From: a virus
Virus record (IMG/VR): IMGVR_UViG_3300035665_000085
Span: 1-41,584 of that record
Strand: one strand, 5' to 3'
Length of the DNA: 41,584 bases
Shown here: in pieces, positions 242 through 14,420 of the stretch
Position numbering within the stretch: position 1 is the first letter of the stretch
Layout of the letters: each line of letters begins with the position of its first letter
Program-made: the position numbers and the translations under genes
The notes under the pieces: generated by a model
The model's input: only the letters and a program-made list of their open reading frames with translations
What the model was told of the DNA's origin: nothing
Databases searched by the model: none

Positions 242-665
242 TGCGGCCCTGACCGCTGGTCAGCAGCCAACAACCACAACCAACGGGCGGCTGACAAACA
301 GCAACAAGTACAGCATCTACGCCACAGGTACAACCAACGGCACAGCGGGCTCTGCGGTCAATCTGACGCTGTTCACGCTACCCAACAACGGCGACCTCCG
401 CTTCTTGCGCATCACCGTCAAAGCCAAGTCCGCGGCAGCCATGCCTGACATCTTTGGCCGCACGCTTGACGCGATGTGGGGCAACGGCGCTGGCGTGCTG
501 ACCCAAGTTGGCGCAGACCAACTCGGCACAGCGCTCACTGTCGGCAACTTGGCAGCAGCGACTATTGCAACGACAGCAGCAGGTACTACACTCCGCGTCA
601 CCTGCACAGACGTGACGGGTTGCGCAGCGGTCGTCACTTGGGAAGTCTTCGGAGAGTACTACTAG
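1..665 (+). CDS. Tail fibre protein, C-terminal part (continues from 40158 over the junction)
   Basis: This is the 3' end of the fibre gene whose start is at 40158; the frame is open from base 3. Joined across the 41343-bp circle the protein is about 616 aa. This part holds a repeat-type fibre segment seen in many phage fibres (TAPLKFTSGNLMTAAEAGAV) and a Thr/Ala/Gly-rich C-terminal domain ending in a beta-rich stretch (VTWEVFGEYY). It is expected at the distal end of the tail, where it would contact the host surface. No enzymatic motif is seen. The role is inferred from composition and from its position at the end of the late block. Confidence 0.75.
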   Translation, partial: RISSAGQTFIVQKARVGDTTTPTALLHLKAGTTAATTAPLKFTSGNLMTAAEAGAVEFLTDKAYLTITTGTSRKELALNDAALTAGQQPTTTTNGRLTNSNKYSIYATGTTNGTAGSAVNLTLFTLPNNGDLRFLRITVKAKSAAAMPDIFGRTLDAMWGNGAGVLTQVGADQLGTALTVGNLAAATIATTAAGTTLRVTCTDVTGCAAVVTWEVFGEYY

Positions 666-673
666 GAGCTACC

Positions 674-868
674 ATGGAAGTATCTATCGTCATCAAGTTG
701 TCTGACGGCAGCACTCGCGTCATCGAGTTGAAAGACGCCAGTTTGCAGACCAGCTGGGCTCACATCACGCAAGGGTACGACCCTGCCAATCCGACTCCTC
801 CGCAACTTGTCGGCAACTTGGTTCTTCAGGGTTCTATCAAGGACACCGACCTGGTAGGGGTGACCTGA
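674..868 (+). CDS. Small hypothetical protein behind the tail fibre
   Basis: 64 aa, starting at ATG 674 eight bases after the fibre stop; AGGAG at 664-668 is an adequate ribosome site. It begins MEVSIVIKLSDGSTR and has a beta-rich look followed by a Pro-rich middle. It has no signal peptide, membrane segment or recognised domain. The stop overlaps the next start (TGATG at 866-870), so it is translationally coupled to the lipoprotein gene. Small genes in this place are often fibre chaperones or fibre-associated proteins, but nothing in the sequence proves it. Confidence 0.6.
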   Translation: MEVSIVIKLSDGSTRVIELKDASLQTSWAHITQGYDPANPTPPQLVGNLVLQGSIKDTDLVGVT

Positions 869-8299: not shown

Positions 8300-9603
8300 G
8301 CAACATAGCTTGACTTGTTGACACTGTCAATAGGCTTTGTGTCGTCGGCGTCAGAATATCTGTACGTCGCGCCGTGCCAGTGCAATCGAAACCTGCCCTT
8401 GGCGCCGTGCCTGTGCTTTGCAATGTCGATTTCTGCGTACCCTTCTGGATAGCTGCTGCCTTGGGCTGGCTGCCACAGGAAGGCGATCCAGTCTGCGTCC
8501 TGTTCGATCTGACCAGACCCGCGCAGGTCGCTCATGCGGTAGCGTCCGTCGCCGCGAACCTCTGCCGCACGGTTGGGCTGTGCGATAAGTATGAACGGAA
8601 TACCCAGCAGTTTGGCCAGGTTCTTGCTGCGGGTAGTGTGCTGGCCGATACTCAGATCATCGCGCTCTGCACCTGTGCTGGGGAGCAGCTGCAGGTAGTC
8701 GAGGATGACCATGCCGAGCGGCTTCGTCTCGTGCTGCGCACACAGCCACTGCACCACCTCGTCGTAGCTGCGCGGCGGCCTGTCCCAGATTTCGTAGTCC
8801 CATCCAGCCATCTGCGCGTAGGCATCTCGCAATGCGGCAGCCTCCGTAGGTGTCGCAGCCCTCGACCCGAGCAGCGGGACTCCCGAGAGGTAACTTGCCA
8901 GCCTGCGGTGCAGTTCGCTCGCCTCCATCTCCAGCGAAACGAACATGACCCGTTTGCCAGCCCTGCATGCGGACGCCATCATCGCCAGCGCCAACGAGGT
9001 CTTGCCGCCACCAGGTCGAGCGCTCAGGATGTACAACCTGTTCGCACGGAAGCCCCCAGCCATTGCGTTGTCCAAGCAGCGCAGCGAGGTCGACACGGGC
9101 GGCAGCTTCTCGACACCCGACACATCCTCTGCGAAGAGTTCGGCCAGCAGCGTAGCTTTGTCCTTGCTTGCTTGCCCGTCGATGCGCGGGACATGCACCG
9201 CCTTGGCTGCGCTCAGTGCGTCGAGCCTGTCTTCGGGACTGCGTGCCGTAGCTGCTGCCCACATGTGCTGCTGGATCGCGATCATGGCTTCGCGCTGCTC
9301 ATGGTGTACGCGGATACTGCGCAGGTAGGGTGCGCAGTCTGCAACGTCGAGGTGCAGGTCTGCCATCACGCGGTCGCGTTCCTGATCTAGCAACGTCGCT
9401 GTAGCGTCGAGCAATCCTGCCGTCTTGCGGATTGCGTAGGCATCCAGCCACGCGGACACGGCTTTGCGGACCACGCTGTCCGTCAGCATGTCCACAGTGC
9501 ATCCCGACGATTGCCACGCCTTGGCTGCGTGTTCGCCGTTGGCCACCATCGTAGCCAGTACCACGCGCTCTGCCGTCACGTCGCACACATCTGCGATGTT
9601 CAT
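8296..9603 (-). CDS. dnaB: Replicative DnaB-type helicase
   Basis: 435 aa. N-terminal helical domain (1-150), then a RecA-like ATPase: Walker A RPGGGKTS (Lys201, Thr202), catalytic Glu225 in SLEM, Walker B MVILDYLQLL (Asp302), and the DLRGSGQIEQDAD segment. The C-terminal KHRHGAKGRFRL matches the arginine-finger/beta-hairpin region. It is a hexameric 5'-3' helicase that opens the fork for host primase and polymerase, since the phage encodes neither. No separate loader gene is evident; the adjacent initiator may load it. ATG 9603 overlaps the initiator stop by 4 nt. Confidence 0.93.
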   Translation of the reverse strand: MNIADVCDVTAERVVLATMVANGEHAAKAWQSSGCTVDMLTDSVVRKAVSAWLDAYAIRKTAGLLDATATLLDQERDRVMADLHLDVADCAPYLRSIRVHHEQREAMIAIQQHMWAAATARSPEDRLDALSAAKAVHVPRIDGQASKDKATLLAELFAEDVSGVEKLPPVSTSLRCLDNAMAGGFRANRLYILSARPGGGKTSLALAMMASACRAGKRVMFVSLEMEASELHRRLASYLSGVPLLGSRAATPTEAAALRDAYAQMAGWDYEIWDRPPRSYDEVVQWLCAQHETKPLGMVILDYLQLLPSTGAERDDLSIGQHTTRSKNLAKLLGIPFILIAQPNRAAEVRGDGRYRMSDLRGSGQIEQDADWIAFLWQPAQGSSYPEGYAEIDIAKHRHGAKGRFRLHWHGATYRYSDADDTKPIDSVNKSSYVA

Positions 9604-10613
9604 TGCACGTCCTCCAGCATCTCGGGTTCAGGCTTGCGCGACCAGTCCAGTACGATCCGCGTCTCCCTGCCGTGTTCGCGCAGCATCCATGCAGCAAGTT
9701 GGGCGTGTACCTTCTCGATGTTCGCCCTGCTGCACCACTCCGTCATCGTCCAAACCCTGACCTGGGCATGCTGTCCGTAGGGCAGGCCAGCGTAGTAGGG
9801 CAGGTTGTCTTTGCTGTACTCGAACAAAGTCTGCAAGTACCTGATGTTCCCAAGCGCAGCCACTACGGTAGCCACGTTGCGTGCGTTCAGCTTCATCCAC
9901 GCAGCGTCTGCCTGCACAGGCGCATTGGGCGGCACCATAGTCTGCGACCAACGCTTTGCCGCCTCAGACGCGAGTTTCCTGTGGAGGATAGCCTTGGCCT
10001 GCTTCGCGCCCGTATCGCGCGTCCTAGGGGCATCTGCTGCGTCGAGCAGCGTACCCTGCTTGCTGCCCATGTCTGCCACAAGCCGATCCCAATCGTCGGC
10101 GGCTGCGTCAGCAGCATGCGATAGATAGTACGAAGTACTATCTGTATCTGTATCCTTATCCTTACCTACCCCACCCCTGGGGTAAGGGGTGGGGGTAGGG
10201 GTGGGGGGAGGGGTGGGGTAAGGGGTGGGGGGTCTGAGTTGAATATCTTCAGCGAGTTGCTGACCGAAGCTAGCCCAGTGGTAGTCAAGAACTTGGCGTG
10301 ACCATGCCTTGTGGTGGGCAAGATGTCGGGGAAATTCGTGCCGCATTCTTGCTGGGCAGTAGGCAAGAGTCGGCGCTGCGGCGTTGTCGAGCATGATGAG
10401 ATTGCGCTCGACGAGCGTCTGCAGAGCGGGGCGCAGCGCCTGCAGGGATACCTGCAGATCGTCGGCAAGCGCTCGCATGCGCATCGGCGTGACGGGGAAT
10501 GCTCTGGCGTCGGGGCCTGCAGCAAGCCTGAAGTACAGCGCCTGGGATAGCGCGCTCGTACCTGCTAGCTGCGGCCAGATGTCAGCGTAGACTAGACGGA
10601 AAGAGGGAGGCAT
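9600..10613 (-). CDS. Replication initiator / helicase-loading protein (lambda O-like organisation)
   Basis: 337 aa. Residues about 15-75 look like a winged helix-turn-helix (ALSQALYFRLAAGPDA, then RALADDLQVSLQALRPAL), followed by a Pro-Thr-Pro-Tyr linker (about 127-146), a short acidic Lys/Asp/Thr run, and a C-terminal helical domain (about 170-337). A DNA-binding head, a flexible linker and a helicase-contact tail directly upstream of dnaB match the layout of phage initiators such as lambda O. The linker is encoded by repeats that could serve as origin iterons. GGAGGG precedes ATG 10613. Confidence 0.65.
   Translation of the reverse strand: MPPSFRLVYADIWPQLAGTSALSQALYFRLAAGPDARAFPVTPMRMRALADDLQVSLQALRPALQTLVERNLIMLDNAAAPTLAYCPARMRHEFPRHLAHHKAWSRQVLDYHWASFGQQLAEDIQLRPPTPYPTPPPTPTPTPYPRGGVGKDKDTDTDSTSYYLSHAADAAADDWDRLVADMGSKQGTLLDAADAPRTRDTGAKQAKAILHRKLASEAAKRWSQTMVPPNAPVQADAAWMKLNARNVATVVAALGNIRYLQTLFEYSKDNLPYYAGLPYGQHAQVRVWTMTEWCSRANIEKVHAQLAAWMLREHGRETRIVLDWSRKPEPEMLEDVQ
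10123..10232. other. Candidate replication origin inside the initiator gene
   Basis: Three repeat blocks lie side by side: a perfect 9-bp inverted repeat (AGATAGTAC, 3-nt gap, GTACTATCT; 10123-10143), tandem hexamers (TCTGTA twice, then TCCTTA twice; 10141-10164), and a G-rich tract (10179-10232) holding a 17-bp direct repeat (10179-10195 and 10215-10231) with many runs of four or more G. Lambda-type phages keep their origin inside the initiator gene, so this is the best origin candidate. The G-runs could form quadruplexes on the plus strand. Confidence 0.45.
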
Positions 10614-10728
10614 CTGCCCTCCACCGCATAGCGGACTTCACGGGAGGTAGCGTCCGTCCCTGCGCGTAGCCAGTAGCGCGCAGTCGGCAACCCGTGAAGT
10701 CCGCTATACTTTGGAGGTTCTTGTTCAC
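10582..10728 (-). CDS. Possible 48-aa leader protein before the initiator
   Basis: Starts GTG 10728 with AGAGG seven bases upstream and a hairpin (CGCTG-CGCTAC-CAGCG, 10746-10761) just before that ribosome site, as at other early genes. It reads MNKNLQSIADFTGCRL and overlaps the initiator start by 32 nt. However, a perfect 17-bp inverted repeat lies inside it, so the region may be structured leader RNA instead. Confidence 0.3.
   Translation of the reverse strand: MNKNLQSIADFTGCRLRATGYAQGRTLPPVKSAMRWRADASLFPSSLR
10628..10707 (-). promoter_or_regulatory. Large hairpin in the leader of the replication initiator
   Basis: Perfect 17-bp inverted repeat (10628-10644 with 10691-10707) enclosing a second stem, CTGCGCG/CGCGCAG (10660-10666 with 10677-10683). 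It ends 14 nt before the initiator ATG, immediately upstream of GGTGGAGGG. The inner strand contains CTACCTCCC, complementary to that ribosome site, so alternative folding could block translation. It could also be a cruciform operator. Confidence 0.6.
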
Positions 10729-11260: not shown

Positions 11261-11322
11261 AACTACCTCGCAGCGGCGGCGTAGGCAATATCATGCGGGC
11301 GCATGTGCCCATATGCAAGAGG

Positions 11323-11577
11323 CTACCTGCCCTTGCGTGACGGGTGCAGGCTGTACCAGCTGGACCCAGACGCCAGACGCACAAGCTCTTGCGCATGCTT
11401 GGCACGCGCCAGGTTGCGAGCGGTCACGCTGGCATTGCGTCGCCTGTCATCAGGCAGCAAGCCTAGCAGTTTGCGCCACGCCTTGTCAGTCTCAGGCCAG
11501 TCGCCGATAGGTGTGTCCAAGTAGTCTTGCAGTGCGTGTTGCTGGTTTACTGTAAGGTTTACAAGTTGCAGGTACAT
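11323..11577 (-). CDS. Small basic early protein (84 aa)
   Basis: Begins MYLQLVNLTVNQQHALQDYL at ATG 11577 behind AGGGGG. Helical, with a basic C-terminal half (DDRRRNASVTARNLARAKHAQELVRL) that could contact nucleic acid. No recognised domain. It lies between the first zinc-ribbon/membrane peptide gene and the Dps-like gene in the same direction. Confidence 0.55.
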   Translation of the reverse strand: MYLQLVNLTVNQQHALQDYLDTPIGDWPETDKAWRKLLGLLPDDRRRNASVTARNLARAKHAQELVRLASGSSWYSLHPSRKGR

Positions 11578-11586
11578 AGTCGCCCC

Positions 11587-11760
11587 CTAGTCGCGCACAA
11601 AGATGTAGATAAACAGCGCCGCCAGAATGAGATAGACCACGGCGCCGATGTCGAGCGAGCGGTTGATCCTCGCGGCTGCGTCGTCGCAGTCTTGGCACAG
11701 GTAGCCGCGCCCGCGTGCGTGGGCACGCAGGCAATTGGGACACTGGTTGCGGATGATCAT
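11587..11760 (-). CDS. Zinc-ribbon membrane peptide, copy 1
   Basis: 57 aa: MIIRNQCPNCLRAHARG starts a CPNC...CQDC zinc-ribbon (Cys7, 10, 22, 25), followed by an Arg-containing link and one transmembrane helix (GAVVYLILAALFIYIFV, about residues 38-54). A cytoplasmic metal-binding head on a membrane anchor is the expected topology. The product at 12349-12513 is a clear paralogue with the same layout. A tRNA-like element lies just upstream of each copy. Function unknown; a membrane-tethered inhibitor of a host complex is a guess. Confidence 0.65.
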   Translation of the reverse strand: MIIRNQCPNCLRAHARGRGYLCQDCDDAAARINRSLDIGAVVYLILAALFIYIFVRD

Positions 11761-11771
11761 GGCGCCACCAT

Positions 11772-11835
11772 CGCTGCAGATGCAGCGGCTGCGTGACCAG
11801 GGATCGCACCTGGACTGGCCCACTAGGGCACGCAG
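11772..11835 (-). ncRNA. tRNA-like three-way element, copy 1
   Basis: Minus-strand order: 7-bp stem strand (CTGCGTG, pairing CACGCAG), hairpin CCC-TAGT-GGG, T-arm CCAGG-TGCGATC-CCTGG, closing strand, then hairpin CGCTGCA-TC-TGCAGCG (11772-11787). The T-loop keeps T54, C56, G57 and A58. The anticodon arm is absent. The element ends 11 nt before ATG 11760. The same order of helices with different stem sequences occurs at 12553-12617. Confidence 0.45.
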
Positions 11836-11842
11836 TGTGTGG

Positions 11843-12058
11843 CTACAATGCCCAAGGGTGGGCGGTGTCGTACGCGTCAACGCCTTGGCCGTGTCGCAGG
11901 TAGGCTGTGCGTCCCAAGTCAGCGCCTTTGCGTCGCAGGACTCGCACCTTTGTGCGCAGTGCGTCGAGGCTGCGCGCCGATATGAACTGGCTACGGTCTG
12001 CAGTGTAAGCCAGCCAGTCGCCTTCGCGCGGCGGCGACATGTAGCTACAACGCAGCAT
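11843..12058 (-). CDS. Small hypothetical early protein (71 aa)
   Basis: ATG 12058 is chosen over GTG 12070 because GGAGG lies five bases in front of it. It begins MLRCSYMSPPREGDWLAYTA and continues with a basic segment (RTKVRVLRRKGADLGRTAYL). It looks like a small mixed fold with no metal or membrane motif. Its start lies inside the end of the 87-aa gene upstream (14-nt overlap), so coupling is likely. Confidence 0.55.
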   Translation of the reverse strand: MLRCSYMSPPREGDWLAYTADRSQFISARSLDALRTKVRVLRRKGADLGRTAYLRHGQGVDAYDTAHPWAL

Positions 12059-12308
12059 CTCGACCTCCACGGTGCAGGTAGATCTTGATGGTGCGCGTGC
12101 CTCCCTCTGTCCACCCGTCTAGTGTCATGACGTCGCCGTCGTAGTAGTGGTCGGAGTCTGGCTCGCCGTCGTAAACGGCAAACTTGCGCCATTCTGTTTC
12201 AATAATTCGACGCGCTGCGTCAACGTCTGCGCAGTGGTAGATATGCTGCGGCATGTTGTGCCGACAACTGTCGTGCACGGCACGGATCAACTGGTCAACG
12301 TAGGTCAT
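12045..12308 (-). CDS. Small acidic early protein (87 aa)
   Basis: Begins MTYVDQLIRAVHDSCRHNMP at ATG 12308, with AGGAG seven bases upstream and a start-associated hairpin (12320-12337) before that. Rich in His, Asp and Tyr (HIYHCADVDAARR; DSDHYYDGDVM), so metal binding is possible but no known pattern fits. The C-terminal half looks beta-rich (TRTIKIYLHRGG). Function unknown. Confidence 0.6.
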   Translation of the reverse strand: MTYVDQLIRAVHDSCRHNMPQHIYHCADVDAARRIIETEWRKFAVYDGEPDSDHYYDGDVMTLDGWTEGGTRTIKIYLHRGGRDAAL

Positions 12309-12319
12309 GGGATACTCCT

Positions 12320-12337
12320 GCGCTTATATGCTGGCGC
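12320..12337 (-). promoter_or_regulatory. Start-associated hairpin Z1
   Basis: Minus strand GCGCC-AGCATATA-AGCGC: four of five base pairs around an 8-nt loop, 11 nt before ATG 12308, with the ribosome site between. Member of a family with 12530, 13774 and 14069. Confidence 0.5.
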
Positions 12338-12348
12338 CAGCGTAGACG

Positions 12349-12513
12349 TTAGCGGATTGCGACCAGGACAAGGCCAAGCAAGGCGACGATGGCAAACGCA
12401 ATCGCAGTGCCTGCAGCGTCAGCGATAGCCTGGCGACGGTCGCAGGTAGGGCACAGACCGCGCGCGGTAGTGTGAACGGCAAGGCACTGCGGGCACTGGT
12501 GACGCATGATCAT
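12349..12513 (-). CDS. Zinc-ribbon membrane peptide, copy 2
   Basis: 54 aa beginning MIMRHQCPQCLAVHTTARG, with Cys7/Cys10 and Cys21/Cys24 (CPTC) forming a zinc-ribbon and one transmembrane helix (TAIAFAIVALLGLVLVA, about residues 36-52). It is paralogous to 11587-11760: same metal ligands at almost the same positions, same RRQAIADAAG-type link and same anchor, but diverged sequence. GAGG lies seven bases before ATG 12513. Too short for usual gene-length cut-offs, but the duplicated architecture makes it convincing. Confidence 0.65.
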   Translation of the reverse strand: MIMRHQCPQCLAVHTTARGLCPTCDRRQAIADAAGTAIAFAIVALLGLVLVAIR

Positions 12514-12529
12514 AGTGTGACCTCATTGT

Positions 12530-12547
12530 GCGCCGATAATCTGGCGC
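12530..12547 (-). promoter_or_regulatory. Start-associated hairpin Z2
   Basis: Minus strand GCGCC-AGATTATC-GGCGC, perfect 5-bp stem with 8-nt loop, 16 nt before ATG 12513 with GAGG in between. Confidence 0.55.
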
Positions 12548-12552
12548 GAGTT

Positions 12553-12617
12553 GCTGCAGGATTGCAGCGGATCCGCGTCGCGGAGTCGGACCGCGACAAG
12601 CCCACCGGGGCGCGGAT
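12553..12617 (-). ncRNA. tRNA-like three-way element, copy 2
   Basis: Same helix order as 11772-11835 with changed stems: ATCCGCG/CGCGGAT outer stem, hairpin CCC-CGGT-GGG, T-arm-like hairpin TCGCGG-TCCGACT-CCGCGA (loop T54, C56, G57, A58 kept), then hairpin GCTGCA-ATCC-TGCAGC. Compensating changes in the outer and T-type stems argue for selection on structure. It precedes the second zinc-ribbon membrane peptide gene. Confidence 0.45.
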
Positions 12618-12628
12618 TGCAGTCTAGC

Positions 12629-13378
12629 CTAGGCTCCGATGCGCAGCGAATTAGCTGCACGCTTGGCGACCTTGGCGCTAGCGCCGTGGTCCTCGATCGA
12701 CACACTAGGACGGCGACTGCCGCGCGCGTTGCCGTCGCACAAGCCGCAGCGATTGCAATCGATGGCATTGGCGCGAGTAGACTCAGCAGACGCGGGACAC
12801 TGGATCTCGCCAGCAAGCAACGGCGAGCCGACTGGACGCACGCGGAAATATCGCCAGCCAGCCGCGCGCGCTGCCGCAGCGTCCTCGACAGTCTCGACGC
12901 TGGCCATGTGGTCGACGGCAAGATCGGGACGCGTGCGCCATGCGTGAGTGTAGCCTAGTGGCGCAAGGTCGTACTGCGCGCGGATGGCGCGCCAGCGTTC
13001 CAGCACCTCCAAGGGCAACGCTGCGGCGTCGCCGAATGCCGCAGACCGCGCGCGACGGACGCGCTTGGATGGCGTGACCGTGTCGCAACTGCGCGCCTTG
13101 ACGATCGACGCAGCGCCAGCAGTCAGTACCTGCGACGCGCCAGCATGGGTGTAGCAGCGTCCGTCCTGCAACGGGCAATCGCCACACGTTGACGCGCTAC
13201 CGTGGGCCTTGATCAGCGCCCACGGATTGGCGCCGCCGTCTGCAGTGTCGGGTAGGATCCACAGCGTGAGCGCCGGTCCCGTCTTTGCGTTGCCCGTTGC
13301 TTCCGCGATAAGCGCTTGGATGTCGTTGCCTGAATATGCACCGCCGATCGGAGCTCCGCGGTAAAGTATCTGGCTCAT
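12629..13378 (-). CDS. Cysteine-motif early protein of a family widespread in phages
   Basis: 249 aa from ATG 13378 (the frame is open far upstream but only this ATG has a ribosome site, GAGGG, and a start hairpin). The order TGNAKTGPALTLWIL, then STCGDCPLQDGRCY (Cys65, 68, 75), then a C-terminal cluster with Cys pairs (IDCNRCGLCDG) matches a family of phage early proteins of unknown function that share the CGDCP...CY signature. The Cys clusters suggest a metal or Fe-S site. Helical basic region around residues 105-140. Believed to act early, in the cytoplasm. Confidence 0.6.
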   Translation of the reverse strand: MSQILYRGAPIGGAYSGNDIQALIAEATGNAKTGPALTLWILPDTADGGANPWALIKAHGSASTCGDCPLQDGRCYTHAGASQVLTAGAASIVKARSCDTVTPSKRVRRARSAAFGDAAALPLEVLERWRAIRAQYDLAPLGYTHAWRTRPDLAVDHMASVETVEDAAAARAAGWRYFRVRPVGSPLLAGEIQCPASAESTRANAIDCNRCGLCDGNARGSRRPSVSIEDHGASAKVAKRAANSLRIGA

Positions 13379-13414: not shown

Positions 13415-13474
13415 GGAGCGTATGCACTCCGATCTACCCTGCAAGCACAGGCCTGCAGGGCAGCACGGAATGCA
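13415..13474 (-). ncRNA. Riboswitch-like leader element Y, copy 1
   Basis: A 34-nt core (13433-13466) is identical to 14114-14147 and contains an internal 7-bp stem CCCTGCA/TGCAGGG. It is enclosed by a 9-bp helix (TGCATTCCG with CGGAGTGCA, one wobble) whose sequence differs from copy 2 while pairing is kept. One strand of that helix can instead form GGAGT-GCATAC-GCTCC (13415-13430). Two exclusive folds upstream of a start-site hairpin and gene are typical of cis-acting RNA switches. No promoter or ligand is known. Confidence 0.55.
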
Positions 13475-13478
13475 CAAG

Positions 13479-13760
13479 CTAGGGGCATAGGATAGCGTCG
13501 AATTCGATAAACTCACCGCTCTCAGTCTCGTGGCTACCCTCGACGCGCACACTGAGGTCGTCCGATGGTGCACTGCGAAAGAACGTGCCTTGGTACTGTG
13601 TGATGCGCATCCATTCCCGATAGAACAGATCGGGAGTGTCGCGGAAATCGCATCCCGTGACGGTTTGTGTCGGGCCGCGGATGCCTGCGTCAATGATAGC
13701 GTGGATCGCCTCGACGCGACCGAGCATGGATGAAGGAAGAACGTGGGAATTGGTAGGCAT
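13479..13760 (-). CDS. Small acidic early protein (93 aa)
   Basis: Begins MPTNSHVLPSSMLGRVEAIH at ATG 13760, with CGGAG seven bases in front and hairpin Z3 upstream. The middle (GCDFRDTPDLFYREWMRITQYQGTFFRS) is aromatic-rich and the C-terminal third is acidic with beta character (RVEGSHETESGEFIEFDAIL). No domain recognised. It is one of five independently led small genes at the head of the early block. Confidence 0.6.
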   Translation of the reverse strand: MPTNSHVLPSSMLGRVEAIHAIIDAGIRGPTQTVTGCDFRDTPDLFYREWMRITQYQGTFFRSAPSDDLSVRVEGSHETESGEFIEFDAILCP

Positions 13761-13773
13761 GGTGTACTCCGAT

Positions 13774-13791
13774 GCGCCGATATGCCGGCGC
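13774..13791 (-). promoter_or_regulatory. Start-associated hairpin Z3
   Basis: Minus strand GCGCC-GGCATATC-GGCGC, 13 nt before ATG 13760; the stem can extend to 6 bp by pairing the first and last loop bases. GCTAGC directly precedes it, as at Z4. Confidence 0.55.
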
Positions 13792-13811
13792 TAGCTAGGG
13801 TTGACGGACAA

Positions 13812-14054: not shown

Positions 14055-14068
14055 AGCAGTAACTCCTT

Positions 14069-14086
14069 GCGCCGATGTGCTGGCGC
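14069..14086 (-). promoter_or_regulatory. Start-associated hairpin Z4
   Basis: Minus strand GCGCC-AGCACATC-GGCGC, 14 nt before ATG 14054 with AAGGAG in between. Confidence 0.55.
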
Positions 14087-14095
14087 TAGCTGTGG

Positions 14096-14154
14096 GGTGC
14101 TGGTCTGCACCGGTCTACCCTGCAAGCACAGGCCTGCAGGGCAGCACCGGTACA
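14096..14154 (-). ncRNA. Riboswitch-like leader element Y, copy 2
   Basis: Core 14114-14147 identical to copy 1. The enclosing helix is TGTACCGG with CCGGTGCA (8 bp with one wobble), and the alternative hairpin is GGTGC-AGACCA-GCACC (14096-14111), again a 5-bp stem with 6-nt loop. Both helices differ in sequence from copy 1 yet keep pairing. It lies between the stop of the 87-aa gene and hairpin Z4. Confidence 0.55.
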
Positions 14155-14156
14155 GG

Positions 14157-14420
14157 CTAGCCGCGATTAGCATAGCTCGTTTCCGCCTCTGCGAGAGTCT
14201 CGCAGTAGCGGCCACTGTACAAGGCAAGCTTGCCGGTGCGATACGGATGCGGCGCCGCGTACCACGTCGCAAACGGATGCAGGTTGTTGAAACGGCGAGC
14301 GCCAAGGACGATCCAGCCGTCGCCGCTTGGGCGCATGGCGAGCAGCTCCACGCCGTGATCTGGCGAGTAGGTGCGGACCTGATCAGGTATGAAGGCGAAG
14401 GTTTGGACGGTGTCGATCAT
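14157..14420 (-). CDS. First gene of the early block, hypothetical (87 aa)
   Basis: Begins MIDTVQTFAFIPDQVRTYSP at ATG 14420, first gene behind the early promoter. Beta-rich, aromatic core (GDGWIVLGARRFNNLHPFATWYAAPHP) and a helical end (LAEAETSYANRG). TGGAG precedes the ATG by eight bases. Being transcribed first it is likely the earliest product after DNA entry, the usual place for host-takeover proteins, but no family is recognised. Confidence 0.6.
   Translation of the reverse strand: MIDTVQTFAFIPDQVRTYSPDHGVELLAMRPSGDGWIVLGARRFNNLHPFATWYAAPHPYRTGKLALYSGRYCETLAEAETSYANRG

Follow-up and report, generated by a model that had tools for sequence, protein, structure and literature searches.

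Mimicry of tRNA is known from the ends of plant virus RNAs, from tmRNA, from Y RNAs and from one riboswitch. The tRNA-like domain of tmRNA joins an acceptor stem, a T-arm and a D-loop without an anticodon arm, as does the element described here, and in mascRNA, menRNA and the tRNA punctuation of mitochondrial transcripts, tRNA-like bodies mark cut sites in longer transcripts. The closest known systems are the minimal RNase P substrates (AT1/pMini) and the RNase P cuts in M3 RNA, C4 RNA and T4 gene 32 mRNA. The 12-bp stack of acceptor stem and T-arm is the measuring device of RNase P, hairpins consisting of these two parts alone are good substrates, the GGU of the RNase P RNA pairs with the 3′ RCC, and non-tRNA substrates of the enzyme include phage and messenger RNAs (PMC11143913). 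The cyanobacterial RNase P RNA lacks the GGU and disfavours CCA (PMC4264200).

Here we describe a tRNA mimic of a known kind whose architecture, position and phage-wide spread appear to be new. Like the minimal RNase P substrates, it has an acceptor/T-arm stack, a T-loop and a phage RNA context, and the RCC-like tail of most members may be a further likeness (PMC11143913); unlike them, it is natural, conserved, intercistronic and widespread, with a mini D-arm and elbow of its own, and its cutting is a prediction. The yjdF riboswitch also places a tRNA-like elbow in an mRNA leader upstream of the Shine–Dalgarno site (PMC9142559), but its aptamer, a homologue of tRNA-Lys, keeps a tRNA-like anticodon stem and recognizes azaaromatics, and it serves bacterial genes, whereas our element is a shorter structure from the gaps between phage genes and has no anticodon arm; the yjdF Rfam model does not match it. 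YrlA (RF02553) is likewise a tRNA mimic with a T-arm and a D-arm and without an anticodon arm, but its module, which stands on a stem that binds Ro60, is circularly permuted, with T-arm, acceptor-like hairpin and D-arm enclosed by an outer stem, whereas the acceptor stem of our element is outermost; with the YrlA model, the window gave nothing at E values of 10 or less. Unlike tmRNA, the element has no mRNA-like domain, tag or CCA end, and ARAGORN calls it neither a tRNA nor a tmRNA. It differs from mascRNA, menRNA and mitochondrial punctuation in belonging to bacterial viruses, in its unrelated sequences and in the missing anticodon arm. No Rfam 15 family matches it at gathering or permissive thresholds. 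In the openly licensed literature we found no prior description of the element, which may exist elsewhere, and none of tRNA mimicry as a recurrent inter-gene spacer in DNA phages.

Two copies in a leftward phage operon

The window, that is, the whole stretch analysed (41,584 bases of an IMG/VR phage record), holds two copies of one structure, E1 and E2, on the minus strand in the small-gene gaps of a leftward operon. Each is a three-way junction. Its acceptor-like stem (P1) measures 6–7 bp and encloses, in order, a mini D-arm of 3 bp (P2, CCC-YRGU-GGG), the linker CNNG and a T-arm (P3), whose loop of 7 nt reads UNCGAYY. P1 closes immediately on P3, and one more hairpin (P4) lies downstream. 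The parts and flanking genes are listed below, with letters given 5′ to 3′; R1 and R2 are covariance models.

11784–11835, minus strand: E1 core (R1 63.6 bits; R2 48.0 bits, E 3.4e-11; fold)
11834–11829 and 11795–11790, minus strand: 5′ and 3′ strands of E1 P1, with a seventh pair 11835/11789 (CTGCGTG and CACGCAG with that pair)
11828–11819, minus strand: E1 mini D-arm, CCC-TAGT-GGG
11818–11815, minus strand: E1 linker, CCAG
11814–11796, minus strand: E1 T-arm, TCCAGG-TGCGATC-CCTGGT, loop at 11808–11802
11789–11785, minus strand: E1 tail, GCCGC
11772–11787, minus strand: E1 trailing hairpin P4, CGCTGC-ATCT-GCAGCG (sequence, fold)
11587–11760, minus strand: gene after E1, 57-aa zinc-ribbon/membrane peptide MIIRNQCPNCL... 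(open reading frame; DZR_2 matches weakly at E 0.012, short of the cutoff)
11843–12070, minus strand: gene before E1, 75 aa (open reading frame), its stop codon ending 7 nt ahead of the E1 core (11835)
12566–12617, minus strand: E2 core (R1 62.3 bits; R2 57.3 bits, E 8.5e-14; fold)
12617–12611 and 12577–12571, minus strand: E2 P1, ATCCGCG and CGCGGAT
12610–12601, minus strand: E2 mini D-arm, CCC-CGGT-GGG
12600–12597, minus strand: E2 linker, CTTG
12596–12578, minus strand: E2 T-arm, TCGCGG-TCCGACT-CCGCGA, loop at 12590–12584
12553–12568, minus strand: E2 trailing hairpin P4, GCTGCA-ATCC-TGCAGC (sequence, fold)
12349–12513, minus strand: gene after E2, 54-aa zinc-ribbon/membrane peptide MIMRHQCPQCL... 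(open reading frame; weak DZR_2 match, E 0.013)
12629–13378, minus strand: gene before E2, 249 aa, MSQILYRGAPIGG... (open reading frame; start re-chosen from the conserved N-terminus common to the relative L004), its stop codon ending 11 nt ahead of the E2 core (12617)

For both copies the minimum free energy fold (ViennaRNA) is the three-way structure, with modest z-scores of −1.4 and −2.3; thermodynamics by itself would not prove it. The core pattern, allowing up to three mismatches, occurs in the window at E1 and E2 only, against 0.15 places expected. In E1, two U residues face each other at the outermost position of the T-stem. An earlier note on this DNA gave the coordinates, helix order and loop residues of both elements correctly, to be read on the minus strand; the 7-bp outer stem that it described is present in the window copies, but in the family at large this stem is as a rule 6 bp long and the seventh acceptor pair is not kept.

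The peptides encoded after E1 and E2 are paralogues (58% identity over 26 amino acids), so the earlier note was right to place genes of one family behind both elements. Its further suggestion, a duplicated module of RNA element plus gene, fits the window but does not carry over to the family, whose elements sit between unrelated genes. Neighbours there include capsid proteins, amidoligases, sliding-clamp-like and kinase-like proteins, zinc ribbons, membrane peptides and a riboswitch peptide. In L004 the element precedes genes other than those in the window, and in L002 homology to the window stops exactly at the stop codon before E1: L002 has the same element behind another gene. Overall, the element belongs between cistrons and is no leader tied to a single family of genes.

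A covarying family with a tRNA-like elbow

The terminase relatives of the window are L002 and L003 (97–99%) and L004 (72%). The further copies in L004 have entirely different stem sequences and the same architecture, one of them with a canonical UUCGAUU T-loop. A strict pattern built from three sequences matched 24 phage contigs, and three relaxed patterns together with the covariance model R1 brought the family to about 30 uncultivated phage contigs, more than the earlier note had supposed. Most contigs carry one to four copies, and the two to four copies within one genome have different stems. In 84,980 bacterial and archaeal genomes the strict pattern matched one place only, so the element is mainly a phage feature. 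That place (L030, 1324–1375, plus strand), an element-like structure, lies in an Azoarcus metagenome-assembled genome beside an rtcR-like gene and directly before tRNA-Ala; a weak YrlA match next to it (26.5 bits, cutoff 69) was rejected on helix order. Pattern matches in L007 and L009 and weak model matches within genes of L086, L088, L089, L090 and L101 were set aside as chance. A nucleotide search with the whole window matched no named phage, and the named phages reached through flanking proteins (Omegavirus, Arthrobacter and Geobacillus) gave no convincing element. In some relatives the mini D-arm is weak or different. Shorter variants (L062, 2013–2060 and 2494–2541; L063, 1983–2030; L099, 8481–8529; L104, 5416–5462) retain P1 and the T-arm, and all that is left of their mini D-arm is a loop containing GG or GA (AUGGUCGUA, AUUGGAU, GUGAGCGUA).

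Alignment A5 comprises 22 elements and leaves out the phage family of the window. Standard pairs fill 98.8% of its paired cells, as opposed to 67.5% after shuffling, two-sided changes occur at all 15 of the 15 pairs, and the covariation score is 0.860 versus 0.209 in shuffled and at most 0.176 in slid controls. The covariance model R2 was made from these other phages only, and its detection of E1 and E2 (scores listed above) is therefore independent of the window sequences; the next best match in the window reached 13 bits (E 0.19). The pairing is thus kept among other phages, and covariation in unrelated phages lends strong support to the earlier note's proposal of a conserved tRNA-like structure that lacks an anticodon arm. 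A P4-like hairpin of at least 5 bp follows the element in 21 of 34 relatives, compared with 22% in shuffles.

A column-pair analysis of 25 non-redundant elements reveals the elbow. The nine strongest covarying pairs of columns are base pairs of P1 and P3, and the tenth joins position 12 of the P2 loop to position 29 of the T-loop (Fisher p 3e-6, 25 elements). All elements in correct alignment have A:G, G:U or G:C at these two positions; two rows included in the run were out of register (L003 and L013 8061), which weakened the signal and did not create it. Positions 13 (G) and 30 (C) are invariant in the first 18 aligned elements. In tRNA numbering, 12/29 and 13/30 correspond to 18–55 and 19–56, the contacts between D-loop and T-loop. 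Since the window phage has both types at 18–55 (A:G in E1, G:C in E2), the covariation is not only a split between lineages. Together with the invariant G19:C56, it indicates that P2 probably acts as a mini D-arm. No aligned member has an anticodon arm; the element thus falls outside the definition of a tRNA, with its four arms and 7-nt anticodon loop, and the Rfam tRNA model has no match in the window. It is a tRNA-like structure in the broad sense, with 12 bp in P1 plus P3, the UNCGAYY loop, G19:C56 and covariation at 18–55.

The 3′ tail follows the consensus RCYR, with R, C, Y and R in 21, 20, 19 and 20 of the 25 elements, and is found in most members outside the cyanophages; the window tails read GCCG and TCCG, not RCTA. 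The cyanophage elements end in ATTTGG, ATTGG or ATTGCC and have no RCYR tail.

The cyanophages were reached through L097, where a glutamine-II riboswitch (11288–11342, minus strand) and a short peptide lie just before the element, and whose DNA led to T7-like cyanophages. The same riboswitch and peptide precede the capsid gene of cyanopodoviruses, also in L131, L132, L133, L137, L139 and L140, and several of these loci then carry the element. Divergent versions occur in the cultured phages P-SSP7, P-SSP2, P-SSP3, P-GSP1, S-TIP37, S-SBP1 and S-TIP28, which makes the family directly testable. In P-SSP7, P-SSP2, P-SSP3 and P-GSP1 the element has the corresponding position ahead of the major capsid gene, with a P1 of GAGTA/TACTC, a T-loop of UGCGAGU or UGCGAUU and a longer P2 whose loop contains or adjoins the stop codon of the peptide. 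In S-TIP37, P1 is AACUGA/UCAGUU, the D-loop is stemless and contains GG, and the 5′ strand of P1 finishes with the UGA stop codon of the peptide; other versions again occur in S-SBP1 and S-TIP28. A loose descriptor run on these loci hit only the place of the element. NATL2A-133 and S-RIP2 have no element before the capsid gene and have candidates elsewhere, the one in NATL2A-133 overlapping a methyltransferase stop codon. The cyanophage versions may descend from one element or may have arisen repeatedly from tRNAs. After the element, L131 (1660–1730), L133, L140 and relatives share a second conserved block (GCCCTCC..GGAGGATACC..GCCGTCTAGACGGTGGGATAGACCACA) with no Rfam match.

Position in the message and possible readers

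The element holds a nearly fixed position between genes. In 33 cases the median distance from the upstream stop codon to P1 is 8 nt (interquartile range 7–9) and that from the 3′ strand of P1 to the next start codon is 45 nt (interquartile range 38–50). The slot that holds the element in L004 is filled in the window by a different hairpin. This hairpin, a second intercistronic type that resembles RNase III sites, has a CCCUGCA/UGCAGGG stem with a GCUG/UAGA internal loop and occurs twice in the window (13417–13480 and 14099–14161, minus strand); it is the slot of the 13417–13480 copy that the mini-tRNA element takes in L004. In L029 a self-cleaving type II hammerhead ribozyme (613–678, minus strand; 54.7 bits) lies about 240 nt upstream of an element in the same phage operon.

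We give roughly even odds to the reading that RNase P recognizes the element and that such sites punctuate the polycistronic mRNA of phages; processing signals for RNase P were already among the readings offered by the earlier note. P1 and P3, with 6 bp each, make up the 12-bp acceptor/T stack of an RNase P substrate, with T-loop and elbow in place. From this, we infer that host RNase P would recognize the stack, the elbow between T-loop and mini D-loop and, outside the cyanophages, the RCYR tail, and would cut just 5′ of P1. The message ahead of the cut would thereby be parted from the one behind it, whose new 5′ end would be stably base-paired, and expression would presumably be affected. 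As P1 begins 7–9 nt past the stop codon or overlaps it, a ribosome ending the upstream gene would cover P1, and cutting would thereby be coupled to translation. The fuller picture, in which widespread intercistronic mini-tRNAs let host RNase P cut the messages of unrelated phages at set points, gated by a ribosome terminating 8 nt upstream, has in our estimate a little less than an even chance. RNase P is favoured over a general structural role because the cyanophage elements lack the tail, matching a cyanobacterial enzyme without the GGU; this agreement between tail and host enzyme, though indirect, is the best argument for RNase P. The context also suits processing, given the hammerhead upstream of one element and the slot exchanged with another hairpin. 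Against RNase P, the first P1 column at the predicted cut is A in 11, G in 6, T in 4 and C in 4 elements, so that G+1 is not enriched, nor is U at N−1; the window tails depart from RCTA; the substrate shape varies with the mini D-arm; and the compactness of phage genomes could explain the tight spacing.

The main rival, unlikely but serious, is a tRNA-like leader that boosts downstream translation by contacting the ribosome, a mode of action with experimental precedent in yjdF and in genuine tRNAs. The conserved elbow and the location upstream of the Shine–Dalgarno site, at a fairly constant distance from the start codon, would suit such a leader, and cis-tRNA leaders upstream of a Shine–Dalgarno site raised expression 2–6.3 fold (PMC9142559). 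It leaves unexplained, however, both the 7–9-nt spacing to the upstream stop codon and the tail difference between cyanophages and the other phages; the element has no anticodon arm with which to reach the decoding site, and P4 stands between it and the start codon. Rather improbable is an element that acts in cis on stability, its folded body blocking exonucleases and insulating the cistrons from each other without recognition by any tRNA enzyme. The GC-rich, intercistronic character, the additional hairpin downstream and the plain hairpins that take the same slot in other phages all accord with this, but a generic hairpin needs no invariant G19:C56, no 18–55 covariation and no UNCGAYY loop.

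The acceptor/T stack is also what RNase Z, tRNA modification enzymes, EF-Tu and other factors bind, and the element could be a decoy or substrate for one of these or for a defence system that targets tRNAs, and might be set free as a small RNA. U54, C56 and A58 of the T-loop are kept and several copies occur per genome, as might be expected of a decoy, but for one acting in trans the distances to stop and start codons need not be fixed, and the tightness of the spacing makes this reading less likely; position 55 is often G and so carries no pseudouridine, and a free 3′ CCA is absent. We regard it as decidedly improbable. Stimulators of readthrough are known at a similar distance from the stop codon, and a structure about 8 nt past the stop could in principle yield an extended protein; of 33 elements, 17 leave the upstream gene's own frame open beyond the stop, compared with 16 and 22 for the two other frames, which is no excess, and this very improbable reading was rejected. 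The T-arms look like those of tRNAs, and the 3′ ends of tRNAs are often present in phage attP sites, but a chance fold, a tRNA relic or an attP fragment is contradicted by the compensatory changes that unrelated phages show in every helix, by the retrieval of both copies with R2, by the multiple copies with different stems within single genomes and by the lack of ARAGORN or Rfam tRNA matches, and is barely credible.

Were RNase P to read the element, it would have a natural role in mRNA processing comparable to that of RNase III in T7, and the tail difference between cyanophages and other phages would amount to viruses tuning an RNA to the RNase P type of the host.

Other repeats in the window

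Repeated GCGCC...GGCGC hairpins stand just before the Shine–Dalgarno sites of small genes (12306–12346, 13767–13797 and 14061–14090), and in L002 and L003 such linkers bound exchanged gene cassettes. At 10618–10717, before the gene at 9600–10613, a 27-nt inverted repeat (89% complementary, arms 46 nt apart) encloses an inner hairpin and is a possible origin or regulatory structure.
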